Below are positions 17,264-26,724 of a stretch of 64,000 nucleotides of DNA, in pieces. Below the pieces are notes generated by a model that was not told the origin of the DNA, made no database searches, and saw only the letters and a list, made by a program, of their open reading frames with translations. The stretch lies in assembly GCF_000313615.1 (NCBI RefSeq), contig NZ_AMZQ01000001.1:337825-401824 (forward strand). Reading direction: 5' to 3'. Every line of letters begins with the position of its first letter. Within the stretch, counting starts at the first letter, position 1. The position numbers and the translations under genes were made by a program. Origin of the DNA: Campylobacter showae CSUNSWCD (GTDB taxonomy: Bacteria > Campylobacterota > Campylobacteria > Campylobacterales > Campylobacteraceae).

Positions 17264-18083
17264 TTTTGCCTAGCTCGTAGAAGAAATTAGTCGCCTGCAC
17301 GAAGCCCTCGACGCTGCCGCAGTCAAAGCGCTTACCCTTAAATTTATACGCTAGCACCATGCCGTCTTTGGCTTGTTCTTTTAGCGCGTCGGTGATTTGC
17401 ACTTCGCCGTTTTTGCCGGGCTTGGTGCGCTCTAGGATCGTGAAGATGTCAGGCGTGAGGATATAGCGACCGATGACAGCGAGGTTGCTCGGAGCTTCTT
17501 TAGGGTCTGGTTTTTCGACCATGTCGCTAACCATGAGCAGATCGTCCTCGATCGCGCGGCCCGTGACGATGCCGTAGTTTTTGCTCTGTTCGATCGGCAC
17601 TTCCATCACTGCGACGATGCTGCAGCGGTACTTCTCGTAGATTTTTACCATTTGAGATAGCACGCCTTCGCCCTCTTCGTTGATACATAGGTCATCAGCT
17701 AACACCACGCCAAAGGGCTCGTCGCGTACGAGGACTTTGCCCGTGTGGATAGCGTTACCTAGGCCTCTCATGCTCTCTTGGCGCGTGAATGAAAACGTGC
17801 AGCGCGCCATTAGCTCTCTGATCTCGGTTAGCAGGTGCTCTTTGTTTGTGCCTGAGATCTGATGCTCTAGCTCGTAGCTGATATCAAAATAATCCTCCAG
17901 TGCGCGTTTGCCGCGGCCTGTGATGAAGGCCATGTTTTTCATGCCGGCCTCCAGCGCTTCGTCCACGCCGTAGTGAATGAGCGGCTTGGTCAGGATCGGC
18001 AACATCTCTTTTGGTAGCGATTTAGTCGCAGGCAAAAATCTCGTGCCGTAGCCCGCAGCCGGAAATAAACAAGTCTGTATCAT
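17250..18083 (-). CDS. galU: UTP-glucose-1-phosphate uridylyltransferase
   Basis: GalU makes UDP-glucose from UTP and glucose 1-phosphate. The 277-residue protein has the nucleotidyltransferase start FPAAGYGTRFLPATKSLPKEML, with the conserved G-x-G-T-R and Lys, then VLADDLC and VEKPDPKEAPSNLAVIGRY, all characteristic. The ATG follows AAGGAAGATT. It is the first gene of the galU-pgi pair, consistent with supply of activated sugar for lipooligosaccharide and other glycans. Confidence 0.97.
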   Translation of the reverse strand: MIQTCLFPAAGYGTRFLPATKSLPKEMLPILTKPLIHYGVDEALEAGMKNMAFITGRGKRALEDYFDISYELEHQISGTNKEHLLTEIRELMARCTFSFTRQESMRGLGNAIHTGKVLVRDEPFGVVLADDLCINEEGEGVLSQMVKIYEKYRCSIVAVMEVPIEQSKNYGIVTGRAIEDDLLMVSDMVEKPDPKEAPSNLAVIGRYILTPDIFTILERTKPGKNGEVQITDALKEQAKDGMVLAYKFKGKRFDCGSVEGFVQATNFFYELGKNAKK

Positions 18084-18173
18084 AATCTTCCTTTTGATTT
18101 TTTAGGAGATTATAGCGAGTTTTGGCTAATTTGGAGTATTAAGGCAGAAATTTGCAGCTTGTCTTGATAGCTT

Positions 18174-18459
18174 TTTTTACTCGCCGAGACCCGCACCTTG
18201 AAAGCGGTAAATTTAATTAAATTAAATTTGATCTTTCTTGTTAAGGGGAGGGTTTAAATCACGCTCTATTTTGAAGTTGCTGGGCAAAACTGAAGCAAAA
18301 GAGCTCCATTGCCCCTTAACAAATTCCCCAGGCCCTACGACGTGAGAGGTTGCTGAACTACGTGCAGATTTATTTGGCGCTATCGCGCCGTAAATTTTGA
18401 AATTAGCGACATCTCAAATTTAGCACTTTCAAGATACGGGTCTGGGTGAGTAAAATTTA
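18174..18459. repeat. TIR-bounded intergenic element, copy 1 (inverted)
   Basis: The left end (about 18175-18214, TTTTACTCGCCGAGACCCG...) and the right end (18416-18459) are imperfect inverted repeats agreeing at about 34 of 40 positions. No open frame of note lies inside. The interior, read on the minus strand, matches copy 3: blocks GCTCTTTTGCTTC, CTCACGTCGTAGGG-like and GCGATAGCGC. It also contains an inner inverted pair GTTAAGGGG (18240-18248) and CCCCTTAAC (18312-18320). It sits between galU and the flavodoxin gene. MITE-like or REPIN-like are the nearest known concepts; I do not recognise it as a named element. Confidence 0.75.
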
Positions 18460-18519
18460 AAATAAAGATAAAAATAGGACGCAAATTTACAAATTTAAAA
18501 TGCGCCAAATTTAACTAGC

Positions 18520-18548
18520 AAATTTGACCGCCAAGCGGTGGCAAATTT
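18520..18548 (-). terminator. Hairpin at the end of the haem-degradation operon
   Basis: AAATTTGACCGC (18520-18531) can pair with GCGGTGGCAAATTT (18535-18548) with one bulge. The hairpin overlaps the flavodoxin stop codon on the minus strand. The T-run is short, so termination is plausible but not certain. Confidence 0.5.
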
Positions 18549-19056
18549 ATATCCCTTTAAACGCTGCTTTTGCGTTTTCTAGGTCGTTTGCGTCGGGGTG
18601 GGTTGCAGCTCTTGCCCATCTGGCTTCGCGCTCAGGAGTTACGGCATAGCGCGGGTCGTTAGGAGCAGCTTCGCCCATTTTGCGTAGCTGCTCGATGACT
18701 TTTGGATCGATCGCGCCTTGACAGTAAAACTCGCGTAAAATTTCATTTTCGCCCTCGCGTAGCACGACTTTTGCCTTTTCTAGGCAGTTCATCGCGTGCT
18801 CGTGCTCGGGATCCATGCCTAGCGTCATAAATACACCCACTTTTTTGCCCTTTATCTCGCGCAAAAAGTGTTTAAATTTAGGCTCTGCGTCGCCCTTATC
18901 GACGTAAAATCCAAGCGCGATAAAGTCGTAGTCGTCCAAATTTAGGTGCAGATCCTCGCTAAATTTGACCGCTTCGCAGCCAAGCTCGTTTGCGATAGCA
19001 AGACCGACTTTCTTGGTATTTCCAGTCGCGCTCGTGTAGATAACTATTTTTTTCAT
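18547..19056 (-). CDS. Flavodoxin-family protein (HmuF/BilS-like)
   Basis: The 169-residue protein starts with the FMN phosphate-binding loop YTSATGNTKKVG, followed by FIALGFYVDKGDAEPKFKHF and GVFMTLGMDPE, as in the short flavodoxins that pair with anaerobic haem or bilin enzymes. The C-terminal HPDANDLENAKAAF is typical of that subgroup. It overlaps the upstream radical SAM gene in an ATGA junction, so the two proteins are made together. I infer that it delivers electrons to that enzyme. A general flavodoxin role is the alternative. Confidence 0.85.
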   Translation of the reverse strand: MKKIVIYTSATGNTKKVGLAIANELGCEAVKFSEDLHLNLDDYDFIALGFYVDKGDAEPKFKHFLREIKGKKVGVFMTLGMDPEHEHAMNCLEKAKVVLREGENEILREFYCQGAIDPKVIEQLRKMGEAAPNDPRYAVTPEREARWARAATHPDANDLENAKAAFKGI

Positions 19057-20276
19057 TCAAAGTCCTTTTGTGAGATATTTGCTACTTCGGTGCCGATCGA
19101 CATACCCCAAAATATGCCGCCCATCGTGTAGTTTAAAAAGCCGTTTTCTATGTGCATATAGCCTTTGCTTTCGCATTTTTTGAAAAACTCCATTAGCGCA
19201 CTAAAGGTCTCATCGCTAACTAGGCTTTTTACCTGCGCGAGGTTGATTTTTGGGTACATAAAGAGGTTTTTTAGCCGCGCTTCGGCACGCTGTTTGTCGT
19301 CTACTTTATTTATCATACGCATTTTTTCTTTTGCGTTATAGATGTCGTAGTAGCCTAGCTTTCCGCCAGAGCCTCTTCCAAGGGGCAGGATATCGGCGCC
19401 CTCGTGGCTTAGGCGTATGTACTGATAGCGGTCGCGGCCGATGCGGTTAAATTTAGTATGCTCTAGCACCTCGTAGTTGCCCGTACCTAGCAGCTTTTCT
19501 ACAAACGCATTATGCAGCTCGCGCTCGTAATTTACGTCGTAATAATCCTGCGACACGGTCTTTGCGAGCTGCGATTTTTCAAAAAGCTGAAGCGAATAAA
19601 AGCTCGTGCTATCGATGTTTAGCTCATCGACTAGGCGCGCATCCTCTAGCACCTCGTCTATCGTTTGCTCGGGGTAGTTAAATATAATATCCGTGCAAAC
19701 CATGCCGCTAAAATTTTGCTTGATCATTTTTAGGTGCTCTATCGCGCCTTTTTTGTCGTGGACGCGGTTTAGCAGCTTGCGGCCTTTGTCCGAAAAGGTC
19801 TGCACGCCGATGCTAAAGCGGTTTACGCCTAGGCTTTCTAACAGGCGCACTTTGCTTAAATTTAGATTGTGTAGCGTGGTTTCTAGGCTAAATTCGCAGT
19901 CGTCCGAGATATTAAAATTTGAGCGCAGAGCCGTGATGATCGGTTCTAGGTGTTTTTCTTTTAGTATCGTAGGAGTTCCGCCGCCAAAATAGACGCTGCG
20001 GATATTTTTAGCTTGTAGATACGGGAATTTACCGTATTTCCTGGTCTCGCCCAGTAGATACTGCGTGTAGCTATCTAGCTCGTCTTCTAGCTTCGTGCGG
20101 TTCATTGAGCAAAACGAGCAGATATTGTCACAAAAAGGCACGTGGATATAGATCACGCCGTCCTTTTGCGCGGGCAGCTCCTCGGTTAAAAATTTCTCCA
20201 CCTCGGCGTTAGTCGCCATCTTTATTTTTTTGGGACGCGTAGGTCCGGCGTGCCCTTTTTGCCTGGTTTCAAACAT
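19053..20276 (-). CDS. HutW/ChuW/HmuW-like radical SAM enzyme for anaerobic haem degradation
   Basis: The 407-residue protein has the radical SAM cluster motif CDNICSFC (Cx3Cx2C), the YFGGGTPT motif and FSIGVQTFSDKGRKLLNR of the HemN superfamily. Unlike HemN, its neighbours are a flavodoxin and a DUF2470 protein, the arrangement expected for the HutW/ChuW/HmuW group, which opens haem and frees iron without oxygen. The N-terminus (TRQKGHAGPTRPKKI) fits that group better than coproporphyrinogen dehydrogenase. It lies 12 bases after the DUF2470 gene. Canonical HemN cannot be ruled out by eye. Confidence 0.78.
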   Translation of the reverse strand: MFETRQKGHAGPTRPKKIKMATNAEVEKFLTEELPAQKDGVIYIHVPFCDNICSFCSMNRTKLEDELDSYTQYLLGETRKYGKFPYLQAKNIRSVYFGGGTPTILKEKHLEPIITALRSNFNISDDCEFSLETTLHNLNLSKVRLLESLGVNRFSIGVQTFSDKGRKLLNRVHDKKGAIEHLKMIKQNFSGMVCTDIIFNYPEQTIDEVLEDARLVDELNIDSTSFYSLQLFEKSQLAKTVSQDYYDVNYERELHNAFVEKLLGTGNYEVLEHTKFNRIGRDRYQYIRLSHEGADILPLGRGSGGKLGYYDIYNAKEKMRMINKVDDKQRAEARLKNLFMYPKINLAQVKSLVSDETFSALMEFFKKCESKGYMHIENGFLNYTMGGIFWGMSIGTEVANISQKDFE

Positions 20277-20288
20277 TTCGCGCCGCCG

Positions 20289-20558
20289 CTAATTTTCCAT
20301 ACTATTTACTATATTTATGACTTCGTCACGTAGGCTCTCGACCGTTAGCTCGGCCTTTTTCTCAAACGGCACGAAGACTTCGCCCTCGTCGCAGGCGATG
20401 TGCATGCCGTCCTCGGTGATATCGGTCATTTTGACGTTTTGCGGGTTCGTAAAGCCGCCAAATTTTGCGCACATATCCTCTGTAAGGCCGATGAAGTTAT
20501 CGTTCATCATTCCTAGCGCCATCTCTTTGGCTTCTCTTGCTTCCTCGCTTAGCTGCAT
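20289..20558 (-). CDS. Stand-alone DUF2470 (HugZ C-terminal-like) protein
   Basis: The 89-residue protein matches the pattern of DUF2470, the C-terminal domain of HugZ/HutZ haem oxygenases: an N-terminal helix with EMALGMMND, then VKMTDITEDGMHIACDEGEVFVPF and a closing helix LRDEVINIVNS. Here it lacks the split-barrel oxygenase domain. AAGGAG precedes the ATG. It is the second gene of a four-gene minus-strand operon with the ABC exporter, the radical SAM enzyme and the flavodoxin. Binding or hand-over of haem is the likely role, inferred from context. Confidence 0.75.
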   Translation of the reverse strand: MQLSEEAREAKEMALGMMNDNFIGLTEDMCAKFGGFTNPQNVKMTDITEDGMHIACDEGEVFVPFEKKAELTVESLRDEVINIVNSMEN

Positions 20559-20612
20559 TATGTCTCCTTGTTTAAAATGATATCCGTTATTTTAACCATT
20601 TTTAGCTGAATT

Positions 20613-22202
20613 TTAGCCCTTAACGAGCGCGATCTGCCCGTTTCGTATCTCGTAAATTTTATCCGCCGCGTCAAAATACGCATCGTCGTGACTGATCGCA
20701 AAAACAGTGTAGCCTTGCGCCTTTAGCTCAGGCAAAAACTCCGTGTAAAAATGCCGCCTAAACTCGGGGTCTTGATCGGCCGCCCACTCGTCAAGGATCA
20801 AAAATTTGCGTTTTTCAAGCAGCGCCGCGACCATAGCGAGACGTTTTTTCTGGCCTTGGGAGAGATTTAGCGTGCTGAAATTTCCCTCTTTGACGCTTAC
20901 TTTATTTTCTATCGACATCTTTTTTAGTAGCTCATCTATCAGCGCCCCATCGTCGCTCATAACCTCGTCAAAGAGATAAAAGTCGCTAAACACCGCGCTG
21001 ATCGTGTTTGCGTAGCTTTTTAAATTTGACTCGGTGATCCTGACGTCATCTGCGAACATCTCGCCGCTTTTTGGCGCCAGAAGCCCGGCTAGGATCATAA
21101 ATAGCGTGCTTTTGCCGCTACCGTTTTTGCCGATCAAAAACACCGTCTCGCCGCGTCTGATCTCTAAATTTATATCCTTTAGCGCAAATTCGCTCCCCTC
21201 GTCGTAGGCGAAATTTATATCTTTTAGGCGCAGTTTTTGCCAAATTTGCGGAGCCGTCTCGCCTAGCTCAAATTCAGGCTCAAAGGGCGCTAGGTCAAGC
21301 TTTTTTAGCCGCTCGTAGGCGATGCGCGCGCGAAATACGCTAGGCACGGAGTAAAGCAGCATCATAAGAGGCGCTCGTAAAAAAAGTATCGCCAAGGCCA
21401 CCGTGATCGCGTCTTGCAGGCTCGCAGCGTCGTAGGCTAGGCAAAAATATATCTCGATGCCCACGGCGCCCAGCATCACGGTGTTTAGCCAGTTGCTCAT
21501 AAAGGATTGATGGATCTCGGCTTTTACGATATTTTCGCGCAGGCTTTTTGCGTTTGGGATAAAGCGGTCCCAAAAAAGCCGCTTCGCGCGGGCTAAATTT
21601 AAGCTAAGCTCCCTATGTCCCTCGATGCAGGTCTGATAGTCGCGGTATAGCGCGTCCTCGCCGTTACGGCATTGTTCGTAGTATTTGTGGATATTTTTGA
21701 TGAAGTATCGGCAAATCCATGTCGCCGCGCTCATCCAAAGCACCAAAAACACGAAAATCTCGGCCGAGATATAAAGCACGTAAGCGCCCGTCGCGCCGAT
21801 GATAAGCACGCCTTGGATGATGCTTGGCACCTGCATAAAGCCGTCGGTTAGGCTGCGCACGTCGCTTGAGAGCGAGGCGATCAAATTTGACTTGCCCGCG
21901 GCTACGATTTTTTGATTTGCGGTATCTAGGATCCTTTTTATCGTTTTGGCTCGCAGCTCGTAGACAAAGTCGTTGCCAATCACGCTAAGAGCGATGCGCG
22001 AGAGCACCGAAAAGCCCAGAAATAAAATCAAGAGCGCGAAAAATGCGAGCAAAATTTGAGCGTCTTGTTCTTTTAAATTTAAGAGGTATTTGTTGATAAA
22101 GGCTAGGATGAGGATACCCGAACCGCTAAAAACGGCGCTAGATACGATCATGGTGATGATTTGCCAAAGCGTTTTTTTTGAGATTTTTTTAAACATTTTC
22201 AT
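20613..22202 (-). CDS. SyrD/YojI-type ABC exporter
   Basis: The 529-residue protein fuses a six-helix exporter domain (about residues 10-300) with an ATPase domain. Walker A is IGKNGSGKST, the signature is LNLSQGQKKR, and Walker B is KFLILDEWAADQDPEFRR; the DEWAADQDP form is typical of the cyclic-peptide exporter group (SyrD, PvdE, YojI). It is the first gene of the operon that continues into DUF2470, the HmuW-like enzyme and the flavodoxin. Relatives export siderophore precursors or peptides; here export of a haem-derived tetrapyrrole is an attractive but unproven idea. Confidence 0.88.
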   Translation of the reverse strand: MKMFKKISKKTLWQIITMIVSSAVFSGSGILILAFINKYLLNLKEQDAQILLAFFALLILFLGFSVLSRIALSVIGNDFVYELRAKTIKRILDTANQKIVAAGKSNLIASLSSDVRSLTDGFMQVPSIIQGVLIIGATGAYVLYISAEIFVFLVLWMSAATWICRYFIKNIHKYYEQCRNGEDALYRDYQTCIEGHRELSLNLARAKRLFWDRFIPNAKSLRENIVKAEIHQSFMSNWLNTVMLGAVGIEIYFCLAYDAASLQDAITVALAILFLRAPLMMLLYSVPSVFRARIAYERLKKLDLAPFEPEFELGETAPQIWQKLRLKDINFAYDEGSEFALKDINLEIRRGETVFLIGKNGSGKSTLFMILAGLLAPKSGEMFADDVRITESNLKSYANTISAVFSDFYLFDEVMSDDGALIDELLKKMSIENKVSVKEGNFSTLNLSQGQKKRLAMVAALLEKRKFLILDEWAADQDPEFRRHFYTEFLPELKAQGYTVFAISHDDAYFDAADKIYEIRNGQIALVKG

Positions 22203-22292
22203 TCTTTTTGAGAGCTTATTTCATTTTAGCCGCCATTTTATAAGAATATTTTTAAAATTTCGCTAAAATCGGGCTTTATTTAAAGGAGAAAA

Positions 22293-22913
22293 TTGCAAAC
22301 GGTTTTGCGGGTCGTATCGACCAAAACTGAAGCCAAAAAATCGACGTTTTTATGCTTTTTGTGCCCGATTTGCGAGTTTAAAGCCCTTCACGAGCGGCTA
22401 AAGGCGGAGCATCCAAAGGCCGCGCACGTCGTGTGGGCGCTGCGCGAGCGAAACGGCTACGGCCAGATAGTGGAAAATCAAAGCGACGACGGAGAGCCGA
22501 AGGGTACTAGCGGGCAACCCTCGCTAAATGCGCTTAGAGGCGCCCAGCTCGTAAACGCGAGCGCGCTAATAGTTCGGTATTTCGGCGGGATAAAGCTAGG
22601 CACGGGCGGACTCGTGCGAGCTTATGGCGCAGCGGTAAATGCGGCGATAGAGGAGGCTGAGGGCTGCGGGGCGCTAGTTAAATTTGAGATAAAATCGCTT
22701 TGCGTGTTTTTTACGCTATACGCGCTTGGTTCGCGATTTGAGCACTATTTTGAAAAGAGAAATTTGAGCTTTGAGCGAGAATTTAACGAGGAGGGCGCGA
22801 TCTGGCGAGTGGAGTTTAACAGCGCCGAATTTGAGGAATTTCAGGCATTTGCGAGCGGGTTTGAGCAGGAGGGGTTTAAATTTTACGCCTTGCCGTTAGC
22901 TGCGAAAGGGTAG
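22293..22913 (+). CDS. YigZ/IMPACT-family protein
   Basis: The 206-residue protein has the UPF0029 signature: AHVVWALR, then QSDDGEPKGTSGQPSLNAL and IVRYFGGIKLGTGGLVRAYG. YigZ/IMPACT proteins have a ribosomal S5-like fold; their bacterial role is not settled. The start is TTG at 22293, preceded by AAAGGAG, and no ATG fits. It is divergent from the ABC exporter operon and is followed by a repeat element rather than an obvious terminator. Confidence 0.92.
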   Translation: MQTVLRVVSTKTEAKKSTFLCFLCPICEFKALHERLKAEHPKAAHVVWALRERNGYGQIVENQSDDGEPKGTSGQPSLNALRGAQLVNASALIVRYFGGIKLGTGGLVRAYGAAVNAAIEEAEGCGALVKFEIKSLCVFFTLYALGSRFEHYFEKRNLSFEREFNEEGAIWRVEFNSAEFEEFQAFASGFEQEGFKFYALPLAAKG

Positions 22914-22977
22914 GTTAGGAGGCGAAATTCACGTTGGGTTTATACTGGACGGTTATAATTTCGCTGATTTTGGCTAA

Positions 22978-23402
22978 GGCTCGTCTCGCGAGCGCTTTTG
23001 AGAGAGATTTTTGCTTCGCTTTGCTCGCAACTGCAAGCAGAAGAAAATTTTAAGTCTGTGGCAGACTACTTGTTTAAAATTTCTACACAACTCTCAAAAT
23101 CATCTCACGATACTTCGCCTTATCGTTTTATGTTCAAATTTGAAGTCAAATATTTTACTCGCCGAGACTCGCACCGCGAAAATGCTAAACTAAAAAAACG
23201 TGCAGCGCGGCAGCGCGGTCGCACCCCTTGAACGTGCAGTGGGGTTGGTGGGGGTTTGGGGGCGGAAGGGGCGACGCTTCGTAAGTAGAAACCCCTTCCG
23301 CCTCCCAAGAAAAAAGAAAAACTAAAAATTTTCAGAGAATATTAAATTTGATAAAACCAAATTTAGCGTTTTCGCGGTGCGGCTTTCGGTGTGTAAAATT
23401 TA
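22978..23402. repeat. TIR-bounded intergenic element, copy 2 with upstream module
   Basis: The core runs from the left repeat at 23153-23189 to the right repeat at 23359-23402. The interior (G-rich, 23190-23350) differs from copies 1 and 3 but contains a perfect 11-bp stem GGCGGAAGGGG (23261-23271) and CCCCTTCCGCC (23292-23302). Upstream, 22978-23152 shares sequence with 24595-24763: GGCTCGTCT, GAGCGCTTTT, AAAATCATCTCA, CCTTATCGTTTTA and TCAAATTTGAAGTCAAAT. Within this copy both ends carry CACCGCGAAAA where the other copies have an A-x-CTTGAAA form. Confidence 0.75.
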
Positions 23403-23473
23403 AAACCGTCAAATTTGAAGTCAAATTTGCCTGAATCAAATTTAGTCTAAAATTTAAGCCATAAGGAGCGAAA

Positions 23474-24592
23474 ATGCTTGGCAAAACGTTAAAAACAGCA
23501 GGAATAGTCGGCGCTTTAGCGCTATTTTTAGGTATATTTTTAAATTTACAAGGAGAACAGATGAATCATGAGAATGAGACGAAGGAGCCTGTGGCCGCGA
23601 ATAAAACGATCGTGCTGGCGGGTGGGTGCTTTTGGGGTACGGAGGCCTATCTAAAGCAGCTTCCTGGCGTGGTGAGTACCTACACCGCCTACGCAAACTC
23701 AAAGGTGCCAAACCCTAGCTACGAACAGGTCTGCACGGGCGATACGAACGCCGCCGAAGCCGTCTGGGTCGAATACGACGAGTACGTGATCGACCTGCCG
23801 CATTTGCTCAAATTTTACTTTAACACCATAGATCCGACCAGCCTAAACAAGCAAGGCGGCGACCGCGGCACGCAGTACCGTACGGGCATTTACTACACCG
23901 ATGCGGCGGATGAGCCGGCGATCAGAGCCTTTATCTCCCAGCAACAAAAAAACTACAAAGCGCCCATCGTAACCGAGGTCGCGCCGCTAGAAAATATCTA
24001 CAAAGCCGAAGAGTATCATCAGGACTATCTGGACAAAAACCCGCACGGCTACTGCCACGTGACCTTTGAGAGTCTGCCTAAAAAGGGCGAAATTTTAAGC
24101 GACAAAAAGCGCGATATGAAGCAAAATCTGCAAAACTACAAAAACAAAGACGACGCGGCGCTAAAAAATGAGCTCAGCGCCATCTCATACGAGGTCGTAA
24201 AGCACGCAGCGACCGAGCGTCCGCACAGCAGCGAGCTAAACGCCGAGGAGCGCATCGGCATCTACGTCGATATCACCAACGGTCAGCCGCTTTTTAGCTC
24301 GTATGATAAATTTGACGCTGGCTGCGGGTGGCCGAGCTTTACGAAGCCGATAGATGCTAGCCTGATCGCCGAAAAGTCCGATCTATCGCACGGCATGGTA
24401 CGCACCGAGGTCAAAACCGCGATGTCGGACTCGCACCTGGGGCATGTATTTGACGACGGTCCGCGCGACAAAGGAGGGCTAAGATACTGCATAAACGGCG
24501 CTGCGCTGAGATTTGTGCCAAAGGAGGAAATGGAGAAGGAGGGGTATGGGTATTTGATACCGTATCTCGACGCGCAGTATTCTAAAAAATAA
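23474..24592 (+). CDS. msrAB: Fused methionine sulfoxide reductase MsrA-MsrB
   Basis: The 372-residue protein repairs both stereoisomers of methionine sulfoxide. A single N-terminal hydrophobic segment (about residues 9-25) probably anchors or exports it. The MsrA domain (about 38-205) has the catalytic AGGCFWGTE. The MsrB domain (about 225-365) has GCGWPSF and the catalytic Cys in LRYCINGAALRF. The zinc-binding CxxC pairs of many MsrB proteins are absent, as in PilB-type MsrB domains. With nap and psr exporting redox work to the periplasm, an envelope repair role is plausible. Confidence 0.95.
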   Translation: MLGKTLKTAGIVGALALFLGIFLNLQGEQMNHENETKEPVAANKTIVLAGGCFWGTEAYLKQLPGVVSTYTAYANSKVPNPSYEQVCTGDTNAAEAVWVEYDEYVIDLPHLLKFYFNTIDPTSLNKQGGDRGTQYRTGIYYTDAADEPAIRAFISQQQKNYKAPIVTEVAPLENIYKAEEYHQDYLDKNPHGYCHVTFESLPKKGEILSDKKRDMKQNLQNYKNKDDAALKNELSAISYEVVKHAATERPHSSELNAEERIGIYVDITNGQPLFSSYDKFDAGCGWPSFTKPIDASLIAEKSDLSHGMVRTEVKTAMSDSHLGHVFDDGPRDKGGLRYCINGAALRFVPKEEMEKEGYGYLIPYLDAQYSKK

Positions 24593-24594
24593 CG

Positions 24595-25046
24595 GCTCGT
24601 CTTTTGAGCGCTTTTTGTGGATTTTGTTAAAATTTGACTCGATAGGCTACATGCCTTATCTTCGTCAAATTTTAACTTCAAAACCCCAAAAATCATCTCA
24701 AAATACTTCACCTTATCGTTTTACGCTCAAATTTGAAGTCAAATTTGCAAATTTAACTTCAAATTTTACTCACCGAGACCCATATCTTGAAAATGTAAAT
24801 TTAAAACACGCGACGCGATAGCGTCAAATTTAACCTGCACGCAGTGCAGCAACTTCTCATGTCGTAGGGGGAGGGGGCTCTTTTGCTTCGGCGTTGCCTT
24901 GCCTTGTGCTTGCACTCTCTTTGAGAGCTGCTAGCAGAGCGTAATTCAAGCCCTCACCCCTTTTGTATAAAGTAAATTCGCAACGCTAAATTTAACCAAA
25001 CCAAATTTAGCATTTTCAAGATGCAGGTCTGCGCGAGTAAAATTTA
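24595..25046. repeat. TIR-bounded intergenic element, copy 3 with upstream module
   Basis: The core spans 24764 (TTTTACTCACCGAGACCC...) to 25046, with inverted ends at 24764-24802 and 25003-25046. The interior matches copy 1 in opposite orientation (GCGATAGCG, GCAACTTCTCATGTCGTAGG, GCTCTTTTGCTTC, AGAGCGTAATT). The upstream module at 24595-24763 matches that of copy 2. AAATTT occurs fourteen times between 24601 and 25140. It lies between the convergent msrAB and ABC-F genes. Confidence 0.75.
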
Positions 25047-25079
25047 ACTCCAAGCGGCAAAACCGAGTTAAATTTACCG

Positions 25080-25111
25080 CATAAATTCGGCGGGCGTCAA
25101 ATTTGCCCGCC
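25080..25111 (-). terminator. Likely terminator of the ABC-F gene
   Basis: On the minus strand a perfect 7-bp stem GGCGGGC/GCCCGCC (25105-25111 and 25089-25095) with a 9-base loop is followed by GAATTTAT, a weak T-run. Confidence 0.5.
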
Positions 25112-25134
25112 AAATCAAAAGCCAAAATCAAAAT

Positions 25135-26724
25135 TTAAGCCGTCGCTCCCTCGTTCATCGCGGCGTATTCTTCAAAAGTTCCCTTAAAATCGACGACCTC
25201 GCCGTTTCCTTTGAGGTGGATGATGCGGTTAGCAAAGGCGTCGATGAGCTCTCTGTCGTGGCTCACGCAGATGACGTTGCCGACGAATTTATACAGCGCC
25301 TCGCCAAGAGCGATGATGGCCTCGAGGTCGAGGTGGTTGTTTGGCTCGTCTAGCACGAGCAGGTTGCCGCGCTCTAGCATCAGGCGGCTTAGCATCAGGC
25401 GGTGTTTCTCGCCTCCGCTTAGGCTGCCGACCGATTTTTCCTGCTCGGCGCCGCTAAACAGCATCCTGCCTAGGCACTTGCGGATCTCGTCTAGGTCCTT
25501 GTTGTTTTCGTCTTGCAGCCACTCGTAGAGCTTTAGCTCGCCGGTGATTTTATTCGTCGTATCCTGCGCAAAATAGCTAGGCTCTATCGTCGCGCCCACG
25601 TGCACGTCGCCGCTATCTGTAGCCACCTCGCCGATGATGATTTTAGCCAGCGTGCTTTTGCCTACGCCGTTTGCGCCGATGATAGCGACTTTGTCGTTTT
25701 TTTCGAGCTTGAAGCTAAAATTTTCAAACAAAACCTTGTCGTATTTTTTGCTAATGCCGCGCACCTCTAGGATCTCGTTGCCGATGTCGCGCTTGGTGCG
25801 GAAAAGTATGCTGGGATCGCGTCTGCTTGATACCTTGATCTCCTCGATGTCGAGTTTGTTTAGCTGCTTTTGGCGGCTCGTGGCTTGGCGGGCCTTGCTC
25901 GCGTTTGCCGAGAATCGCGCGATAAATTTCTCCAGCTCCTCTTTTTCTTTTAGCTTTTTGTCGCGTTCCATCTCGTGCTGTTTGGCAACCAGCGTCGAGG
26001 CGATGTACCAGTCGTCGTAGTTGCCCGAAAACTGCCTGATTTTCTTAAAATCCACATCTAGGATGTGCGTGCAAACCGCGTTTAAGAAGTGGCGGTCGTG
26101 GCTGATTAGCACCATCGTGCCTTCGTGGCGGTTTAGCTCGTTTTCTAGCCACTTTATACTATCGATATCAAGGTTGTTGGTGGGCTCGTCGAGGAAAAGA
26201 ATGTCCGGCTTTGGAAATAGCACTTGAGCGAGCAGGACTTTAAATTTATCCGAGTTTTCGACCTCGCTCATCGGCTTTTCAAAGTCGCTAAAGCCAAGCG
26301 AGCTTAGGATTTTTTCTATACGCACTTCGTACTCGTAGCTAGGATCCTCCTCGGCGCTTATCATCTCAAGCTGTGCCAGGCGGTCGTTTATAGCGTCAGT
26401 AAACTCTTCGCTCATGTAGAGCTGTTCTTTTTCTTTTACTGCGTCGTAGAGGCGTTTGTTGCCGTATAGCACGGCGTCCTTGACGCTAAAGTTTTCAAAC
26501 GCGAACTGATCTTGACCCAGCACGCCTACTTTTAGTCCGTTTTCGATGACGATCTCGCCGCTGTTTGCCTCGATCTCGCCTGAGAGGATTTTTAAAAACG
26601 TCGATTTTCCAGCGCCGTTTGCGCCGATGAGTCCGTAGCGGTTGCCGCGAGCGAGTTTTAGATTTACATCCTCAAATAGCAACTGCGCGTTAAATCTCAT
26701 TAATAAATTTTTGACTTCAAGCAT
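25135..26724 (-). CDS. ABC-F family ribosome-associated ATPase (YbiT-like)
   Basis: The 529-residue protein has two ATPase domains and no membrane segment. Walker A motifs are GANGAGKST and GANGVGKST, and Walker B motifs FLDEPTNNLD and VLDEPNNHLD. The interdomain linker (about 235-310) is highly charged, as in ABC-F translation factors. The first domain's signature is SDKFKVLLAQ rather than LSGGQ, which is normal for the YbiT branch; the second is SLSGGEKHRL. ABC-F proteins bind the ribosomal E site and relieve stalling; some give antibiotic protection, which nothing here indicates. Confidence 0.93.
   Translation of the reverse strand: MLEVKNLLMRFNAQLLFEDVNLKLARGNRYGLIGANGAGKSTFLKILSGEIEANSGEIVIENGLKVGVLGQDQFAFENFSVKDAVLYGNKRLYDAVKEKEQLYMSEEFTDAINDRLAQLEMISAEEDPSYEYEVRIEKILSSLGFSDFEKPMSEVENSDKFKVLLAQVLFPKPDILFLDEPTNNLDIDSIKWLENELNRHEGTMVLISHDRHFLNAVCTHILDVDFKKIRQFSGNYDDWYIASTLVAKQHEMERDKKLKEKEELEKFIARFSANASKARQATSRQKQLNKLDIEEIKVSSRRDPSILFRTKRDIGNEILEVRGISKKYDKVLFENFSFKLEKNDKVAIIGANGVGKSTLAKIIIGEVATDSGDVHVGATIEPSYFAQDTTNKITGELKLYEWLQDENNKDLDEIRKCLGRMLFSGAEQEKSVGSLSGGEKHRLMLSRLMLERGNLLVLDEPNNHLDLEAIIALGEALYKFVGNVICVSHDRELIDAFANRIIHLKGNGEVVDFKGTFEEYAAMNEGATA

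Follow-up and report, generated by a model that had tools for sequence, protein, structure and literature searches.

The palindromic elements of Rickettsia are mobile palindromes that insert in both protein and RNA genes, while REPINs and BIMEs are mosaics of palindromic intergenic repeats. The enterobacterial ERIC/RU elements are palindromic intergenic repeats of ∼127 bp that can affect transcripts when located at the 3′ end of a gene (PMC10969869, in the part available to us). The Correia elements (NEMIS, CREE) of Neisseria are short, non-coding intergenic elements with terminal inverted repeats (TIRs) that are foldable once transcribed, and cutting of their transcripts by RNase III has been reported (available parts of PMC10969869 and PMC2649163). 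In Campylobacter, intervening sequences (IVSs) are found in helices 25 and 45 of 23S rRNA and are removed from the transcript, leaving the 23S rRNA fragmented, according to the accessible part of PMC2801512. The function and origin of IVSs are described as unclear in the accessible part of PMC4990558, where ‘remnants of a transposition event’ is given as one hypothesis. In the literature that we found, IVSs occur in rRNA genes only. Our search, which took in open-licence sources and little of the subscription journals, returned no report of dispersed relatives of IVS hairpins or of the TIR ends described below, and Campylobacter goes unmentioned in the portions of PMC10969869 and PMC3733652 available to us.

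The window analysed here is a stretch of 64,000 nucleotides (G000:C1:337825-401824) from the genome of Campylobacter showae CSUNSWCD (G000; 2.12 Mb, 23 contigs). It contains elements bounded by TIRs (B) and a hairpin of ∼119 bp (A). Our main result is that A is homologous to the IVSs of 23S rRNA, is placed at the edges of genes and is exchanged between sites as a discrete, whole hairpin; it also carries compensatory changes. The three B copies of the window probably belong to a mosaic built from two or more kinds of non-coding repeat, A and B among them.

A preliminary description had placed three copies of an element with ∼40-bp imperfect TIRs between genes within 7 kb. Their ends were located here by a 30-bp end profile, with the same sequences reversed as controls, giving copy 1 at 18175..18455 (+ strand; 281 bp, between galU-like and flavodoxin-like genes), copy 2 at 23153..23398 (+; 246 bp, with a G-rich interior, for which orthologues were also compared) and copy 3 at 24764..25042 (+; 279 bp). 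The copies are real: TTTTACTCGCCGAGACCCGCA ends with up to three mismatches occur five times in the window versus none in each of 100 dinucleotide shuffles, the end profile pairs them, and the arms of the three copies are 0.85, 0.80 and 0.75 identical over 40 nt. All three fold better than shuffled sequences (z −6.8, −8.6 and −6.0, respectively) and, as had been described, their interiors are free of genes, the ORF list containing no ORF of at least 80 aa inside any of them. The relationships proposed among the interiors also hold. Copy 3 is homologous to copy 1 in the opposite orientation (a minus-strand match of 73% at query 160-285), and the distinct interior of copy 2 is common instead to one further locus (L093) and to the orthologous site in two related genomes, G021 and G023. 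The boundaries given in the preliminary description left outside the more informative part of the locus, the hairpin A common to 23S IVSs.

Hairpin A, which was absent from that description, lies directly to the left of B copies 2 and 3, with AT-rich linkers between A and B at 23120..23152 and 24713..24763. The hairpin at 24594..24712 (+; 119 bp) follows the msrAB stop codon, which ends 1 nt before it, and folds with a z of −6.6. It is one of the nine intergenic copies, all from G000, on which the covariance model R1 was built, and scores 133.9 bits against it (E 2.4e-31). The hairpin at 22978..23119 (+; 142 bp; R1 50 bits, E 3.3e-10) has a small additional hairpin within its left arm (about 23010-23043), is 64 nt from the preceding stop codon by the longest-ORF call, and folds marginally better than shuffles (z −1.6, with 14 of 200 as good). 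A possible remnant of the base of A (AGCTTGTCTTGATAGC; 18156..18171, +) near copy 1 was picked out by eye in comparison with the same site in G021 and C. showae CC57C, and is uncertain. Neither the window nor 17 further A loci gave an Rfam match at the gathering threshold, and a known RNA family was rejected. Scans for sigma-70 promoters and terminators over 17900-25300 gave counts at the level of shuffles (8 versus 8.5 and 15 versus 11.9, respectively).

Members of A fold as ∼119-nt hairpins in which the internal loops are constant and the stems vary. Among the nine copies of the model, both sides are changed in 22 of 44 pairs, with 56 cells doubly changed versus 3 changed on one side, and none of 500 shuffles reached the observed value for four of the five covariation measures, a test that is favoured by the structure having been drawn from the same nine sequences. 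The fifth measure, further pair types, was not above shuffles (29 versus 29.7; 364 of 500). G-U pairs were counted in the best 52 of 59 and the best 72 of 95 alignment rows and fill 57 of 2,138 cells (0.176 of the non-Watson-Crick cells) in one alignment and 25 of 3,149 (0.063) in the other. Since the higher value is close to that of random change and only the lower is clearly low, the argument that A changes as a DNA palindrome is only partly supported. With 150 of 2,206 candidates scored, R1 gave at least 51 matches in G000 at E≤1e-3. Among the best-scoring copies, matches were found in 63 of 153 genomes of the family, in four genera; the hairpins taken from relatives are the best-scoring matches, and better-scoring copies are over-represented in the sample.

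Three equally scoring R1 matches in each of G003, G024 and G005 pointed to 23S rRNA. Matches to R1 inside Rfam LSU matches, at helices 25 or 45 as numbered by position, place A within 23S inserts of G003, G024, G019, G076 and G005 (both IVS sites), weakly in G011 (E 3.1e-8), and also in G083, G124 and G132, that is, in nine genomes of three genera. R1 gives no match in 23S loci of four genomes that lack an IVS, nor in the insert of G020. The insertion takes the place of a short loop: 9 nt separate the two 23S flanks in G000, as in many other genomes, versus 213 nt in G003. The similarity is also evident by direct comparison, as the IVS of G003 matches an intergenic copy of G000 in blastn at 79.8% over 119 nt (E 3e-17), and that of G019 matches another G000 copy at 79.5% over 176 nt (E 9e-28), a match that includes an extra nested hairpin. 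The 23S of G000 is itself IVS-free at helix 45 (C20:42210-42523), and the window copies of A are not in an rRNA gene. On sequence and structural similarity, A and the hairpin core of the Campylobacteraceae 23S IVSs are members of one family, and A occupies the same two sites as the Campylobacter IVSs described in the available text of PMC2801512. The 23S inserts are larger than A, to which they add an outer stem and side hairpins, and in contrast to the IVSs of the literature the A family is dispersed at gene edges. The helix-45 insert of G020 (L245) is 122 nt long and forms a different hairpin, a second and unrelated type of IVS in the genus, and in the 16S-23S spacer region of G005 a weak R1 match (L240 293-410; E 0.017) lies in an insert ahead of 23S.

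The placement of A was determined in loci of G000, G005, G021 and G023 (518,090 bases, selected for the presence of A or B), in which a script, rather than a gene finder, took the longest ORFs of at least 80 aa as genes. R1 gave 154 matches in these loci (59 + 95), of which 131 were retained; the 23 left out comprised duplicates on the antisense strand together with weak and incomplete matches, including L269 102-216 (E 2.5e-5) and a partial match in L261 (E 3.1e-6). Among the ends for which a neighbouring gene was called, 111 of 129 left (GGCTTGTC) ends of A versus 9 of 125 right ends lie no more than 25 nt from a gene. The median distance from the GGCTTGTC end is 7 nt to a stop codon (n=88) and 18 nt to a start codon (n=41), the latter just upstream of the ribosome-binding site. 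A therefore turns the same end to the gene edge on the downstream and the upstream side alike, and its orientation tracks the gene edge and not transcription, relative to which both orientations occur. In loci of other genera, a set that includes ORF-overlapping matches, the GGCTTGTC end is within 25 nt of a gene in 11 of 21 cases and the other end in none of 24. At three loci (L132 1501, L143 1501 and L312 1730) the called reading frame extends 12–14 nt into the left arm, and the stop or start context of the gene may therefore come from A.

Comparison of species shows that the sites of A are partly shared and their contents swapped. Flank matching gave 87 same-site pairs between species at 43 sites in the four species, and the identity of A at the same site is two-peaked, with 58 pairs at 0.55–0.81 and 29 at ≥0.90 while the flanks are ∼92% identical in both classes. 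A match of ≥0.90 at another site exists for 34 of the 58 swapped pairs and is lacking for 24, and the best match of the conserved pairs is at the same site in 27 of 29. Twelve sites are conserved throughout, 24 are exchanged in every comparison and 7 are mixed. In the msrAB region, G000, G021 and G023 have A and B in the same positions, with differing A subtypes; in G005 both are present after msrB and absent after yigZ, and in G003 and G024 the yigZ-msrA gap is only 11–19 bp. At the site of copy 1, the right B end is common to G000, G021 and CC57C, with three different interiors. The corresponding gap is 114 nt in G003 and 124 nt in G024 and is free of B, and in G023 (L330) another gene, with Sel1-like repeats by eye, stands in the place of B. 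The contigs of CC57C mostly match the window at 92–95% over the compared stretches, with one stretch at 80–85%. Thus, both the hairpin and B are present in some species and lacking in others at the same gene pairs, and the orthologous sites of related species do not all carry the same copies. G005 also has an extra hairpin between a gene and the orthologous hairpin, the latter being 94% identical to that of G000.

The preliminary description had likened the elements to MITEs, and B is indeed a short, non-coding, multi-copy family bounded by TIRs, dispersed in close species, with some orthologous sites empty. In G000, 21 stretches scanned with the end profile yielded 39 ends (12 inward-facing pairs and 15 singles; 2 in the reversed control), and the four-genome loci yielded 123, with 42 pairs of 115–591 bp and 1 end in the reversed control. 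DNA searches with copy 1 gave matches in 12 of 41 genomes, all of the same genus and most numerous in G005 (41), G021 (31) and G023 (41), and in none of 16 genomes of other genera, so that further copies exist in G000 and close species. Four matches of the end pattern in Aeromonas came from one conserved, G+C-rich, coding-looking stretch without A and were taken as chance. No target-site duplication above chance was detected, matching flanks being in no excess around the 42 B pairs, whose AAATTT-rich flanks could hide a short one, or around the 131 A hairpins. As to an autonomous relative with the same ends, no pair spanning a transposase was seen among the matches listed for the end-pattern search of the four genomes, and a wide B pair (L336) has no obvious transposase ORF by eye. 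The MITE-like reading is accordingly supported in part. The arms of B are no more alike within a copy (0.714) than between copies (0.729; 1,924 of 2,000 permutations as high), and a co-evolving stem is not supported. By this measure each end of B seems to be recognised on its own, as are transposon ends bound by protein. As part of the mosaic, B is probably a TIR element that is not autonomous and whose interior is modular and rich in hairpins.

We propose that A and B would spread as DNA palindromes via trans-acting machinery. A is the neighbour of roughly one in two B ends and is found on its own as well. The insertion targets would be positions that are transcribed but untranslated, where a transcribed A would form a double-stranded stem, a putative substrate of RNase III whose cutting could allow insertions in rRNA and at the ends of mRNAs to be tolerated. 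Tentatively, the rRNA IVSs of the Campylobacteraceae may be, rather than peculiarities of rRNA, one niche of genome-wide mobile DNA hairpins that are inserted at untranslated transcript edges and swapped whole by machinery not yet described. As palindromic, intergenic, high-copy repeats that are often next to gene ends, A and B recall REPINs or hairpins of the IS200/IS605 type, which are moved by a Y1 HUH transposase. However, PF01797 (Y1_Tnp, which includes the RAYTs) was found in none of 48 genomes of the genus, while the same search was positive in 5 of 14 control genomes; this origin is extremely improbable, and the REPIN reading of the preliminary description is not supported. Spread through RNA, with a hairpin of rRNA or mRNA copied into DNA by a reverse transcriptase, would suit the contexts of A, within rRNA, after stop codons and before ribosome-binding sites, all of which are presumably transcribed and untranslated. 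It is nevertheless very unlikely, as PF00078 (RVT_1) is present in 12 of the 48 genomes yet in none of the copy-rich genomes G000, G005, G021, G023 and G075, and as A is oriented with transcription at some sites and against it at others. Neither RAYT transposition nor RVT_1 explains the copy-rich genomes; the proposed machinery would be distinct from a Y1 transposase and, in those genomes, from RVT_1 as well.

A and B may instead be static and vertically inherited, the differences between species arising by RecA-type gene conversion between copies and with no transposition. Campylobacter is naturally competent, the 43 common sites include the 12 conserved throughout, and swapped hairpins often match best elsewhere (34 of 58 at ≥0.90), all of which would fit, and some of the exchange may be due to gene conversion. 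As a full account it is unlikely, since the gene side shares only the ∼8–9 bp of the hairpin base, which is little for homologous exchange, and since it is at odds with the tandem extra hairpin in G005, the sites empty in some species and the occurrence of the A family within 23S rRNA. Alternatively, B alone could be the ordinary MITE of some insertion sequence and A an unrelated regulatory hairpin of 3′-UTRs or 5′-UTRs. The arms of B lack the co-variation seen in A, as for ends recognised by protein, and only 60 of 131 A hairpins have a B end within 130 nt. Against this, 60 of 123 B ends in these loci, which were selected for A or B, have A on their outer side and in a constant orientation, the orientation of A is set by the gene edge and not by transcription, and A occurs in rRNA; this reading is accordingly somewhat unlikely.

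The mosaic of A and B that we favour differs from each of the known systems. Compared by description only, A resembles ERIC/RU in size, palindromy and intergenic place, but is sharply placed at the gene edge and has IVS relatives. B can likewise be likened by description to the Correia elements, unlike which it has no detected target-site duplication, interiors made of exchanged modules, and a companion hairpin. REPINs and BIMEs share the mosaic, palindromic, intergenic character of A and B, but no Y1 transposase or RAYT was found in the genomes of the genus that were searched, and the unit of A is 119 bp and not 20–40 bp. Unlike the Rickettsia elements, A avoids proteins and is inserted at gene edges and in rRNA loops. 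A dispersed family of the same genus that carries the IVS hairpin, with copies that change place, provides a concrete and testable source population for the origin of IVSs, and A adds a repeat family that is placed by gene boundaries to within a few nucleotides.

The B elements form a single layer of a mosaic of nested hairpins, which probably fragments the draft assemblies of these oral campylobacters. Several contigs of G000 (C16, C19, C22, C5, C7 and C17; loci L096, L101, L133, L142, L136 and L139) end in or near B ends or A, and it is probably these repeats that break the assembly. A 31-nt mini-hairpin forms a third nested layer, being identical at six places in G000 (L087 2424, L088 14097, L089 3001, L094 3517, L099 2724 and L261 1409), five of which lie in copies of A, all at one point of the right arm. 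An extreme mosaic was seen in G005 (L337; G005:C1:206000-208500), where two A-type stems and several B ends are nested within ∼1.2 kb.
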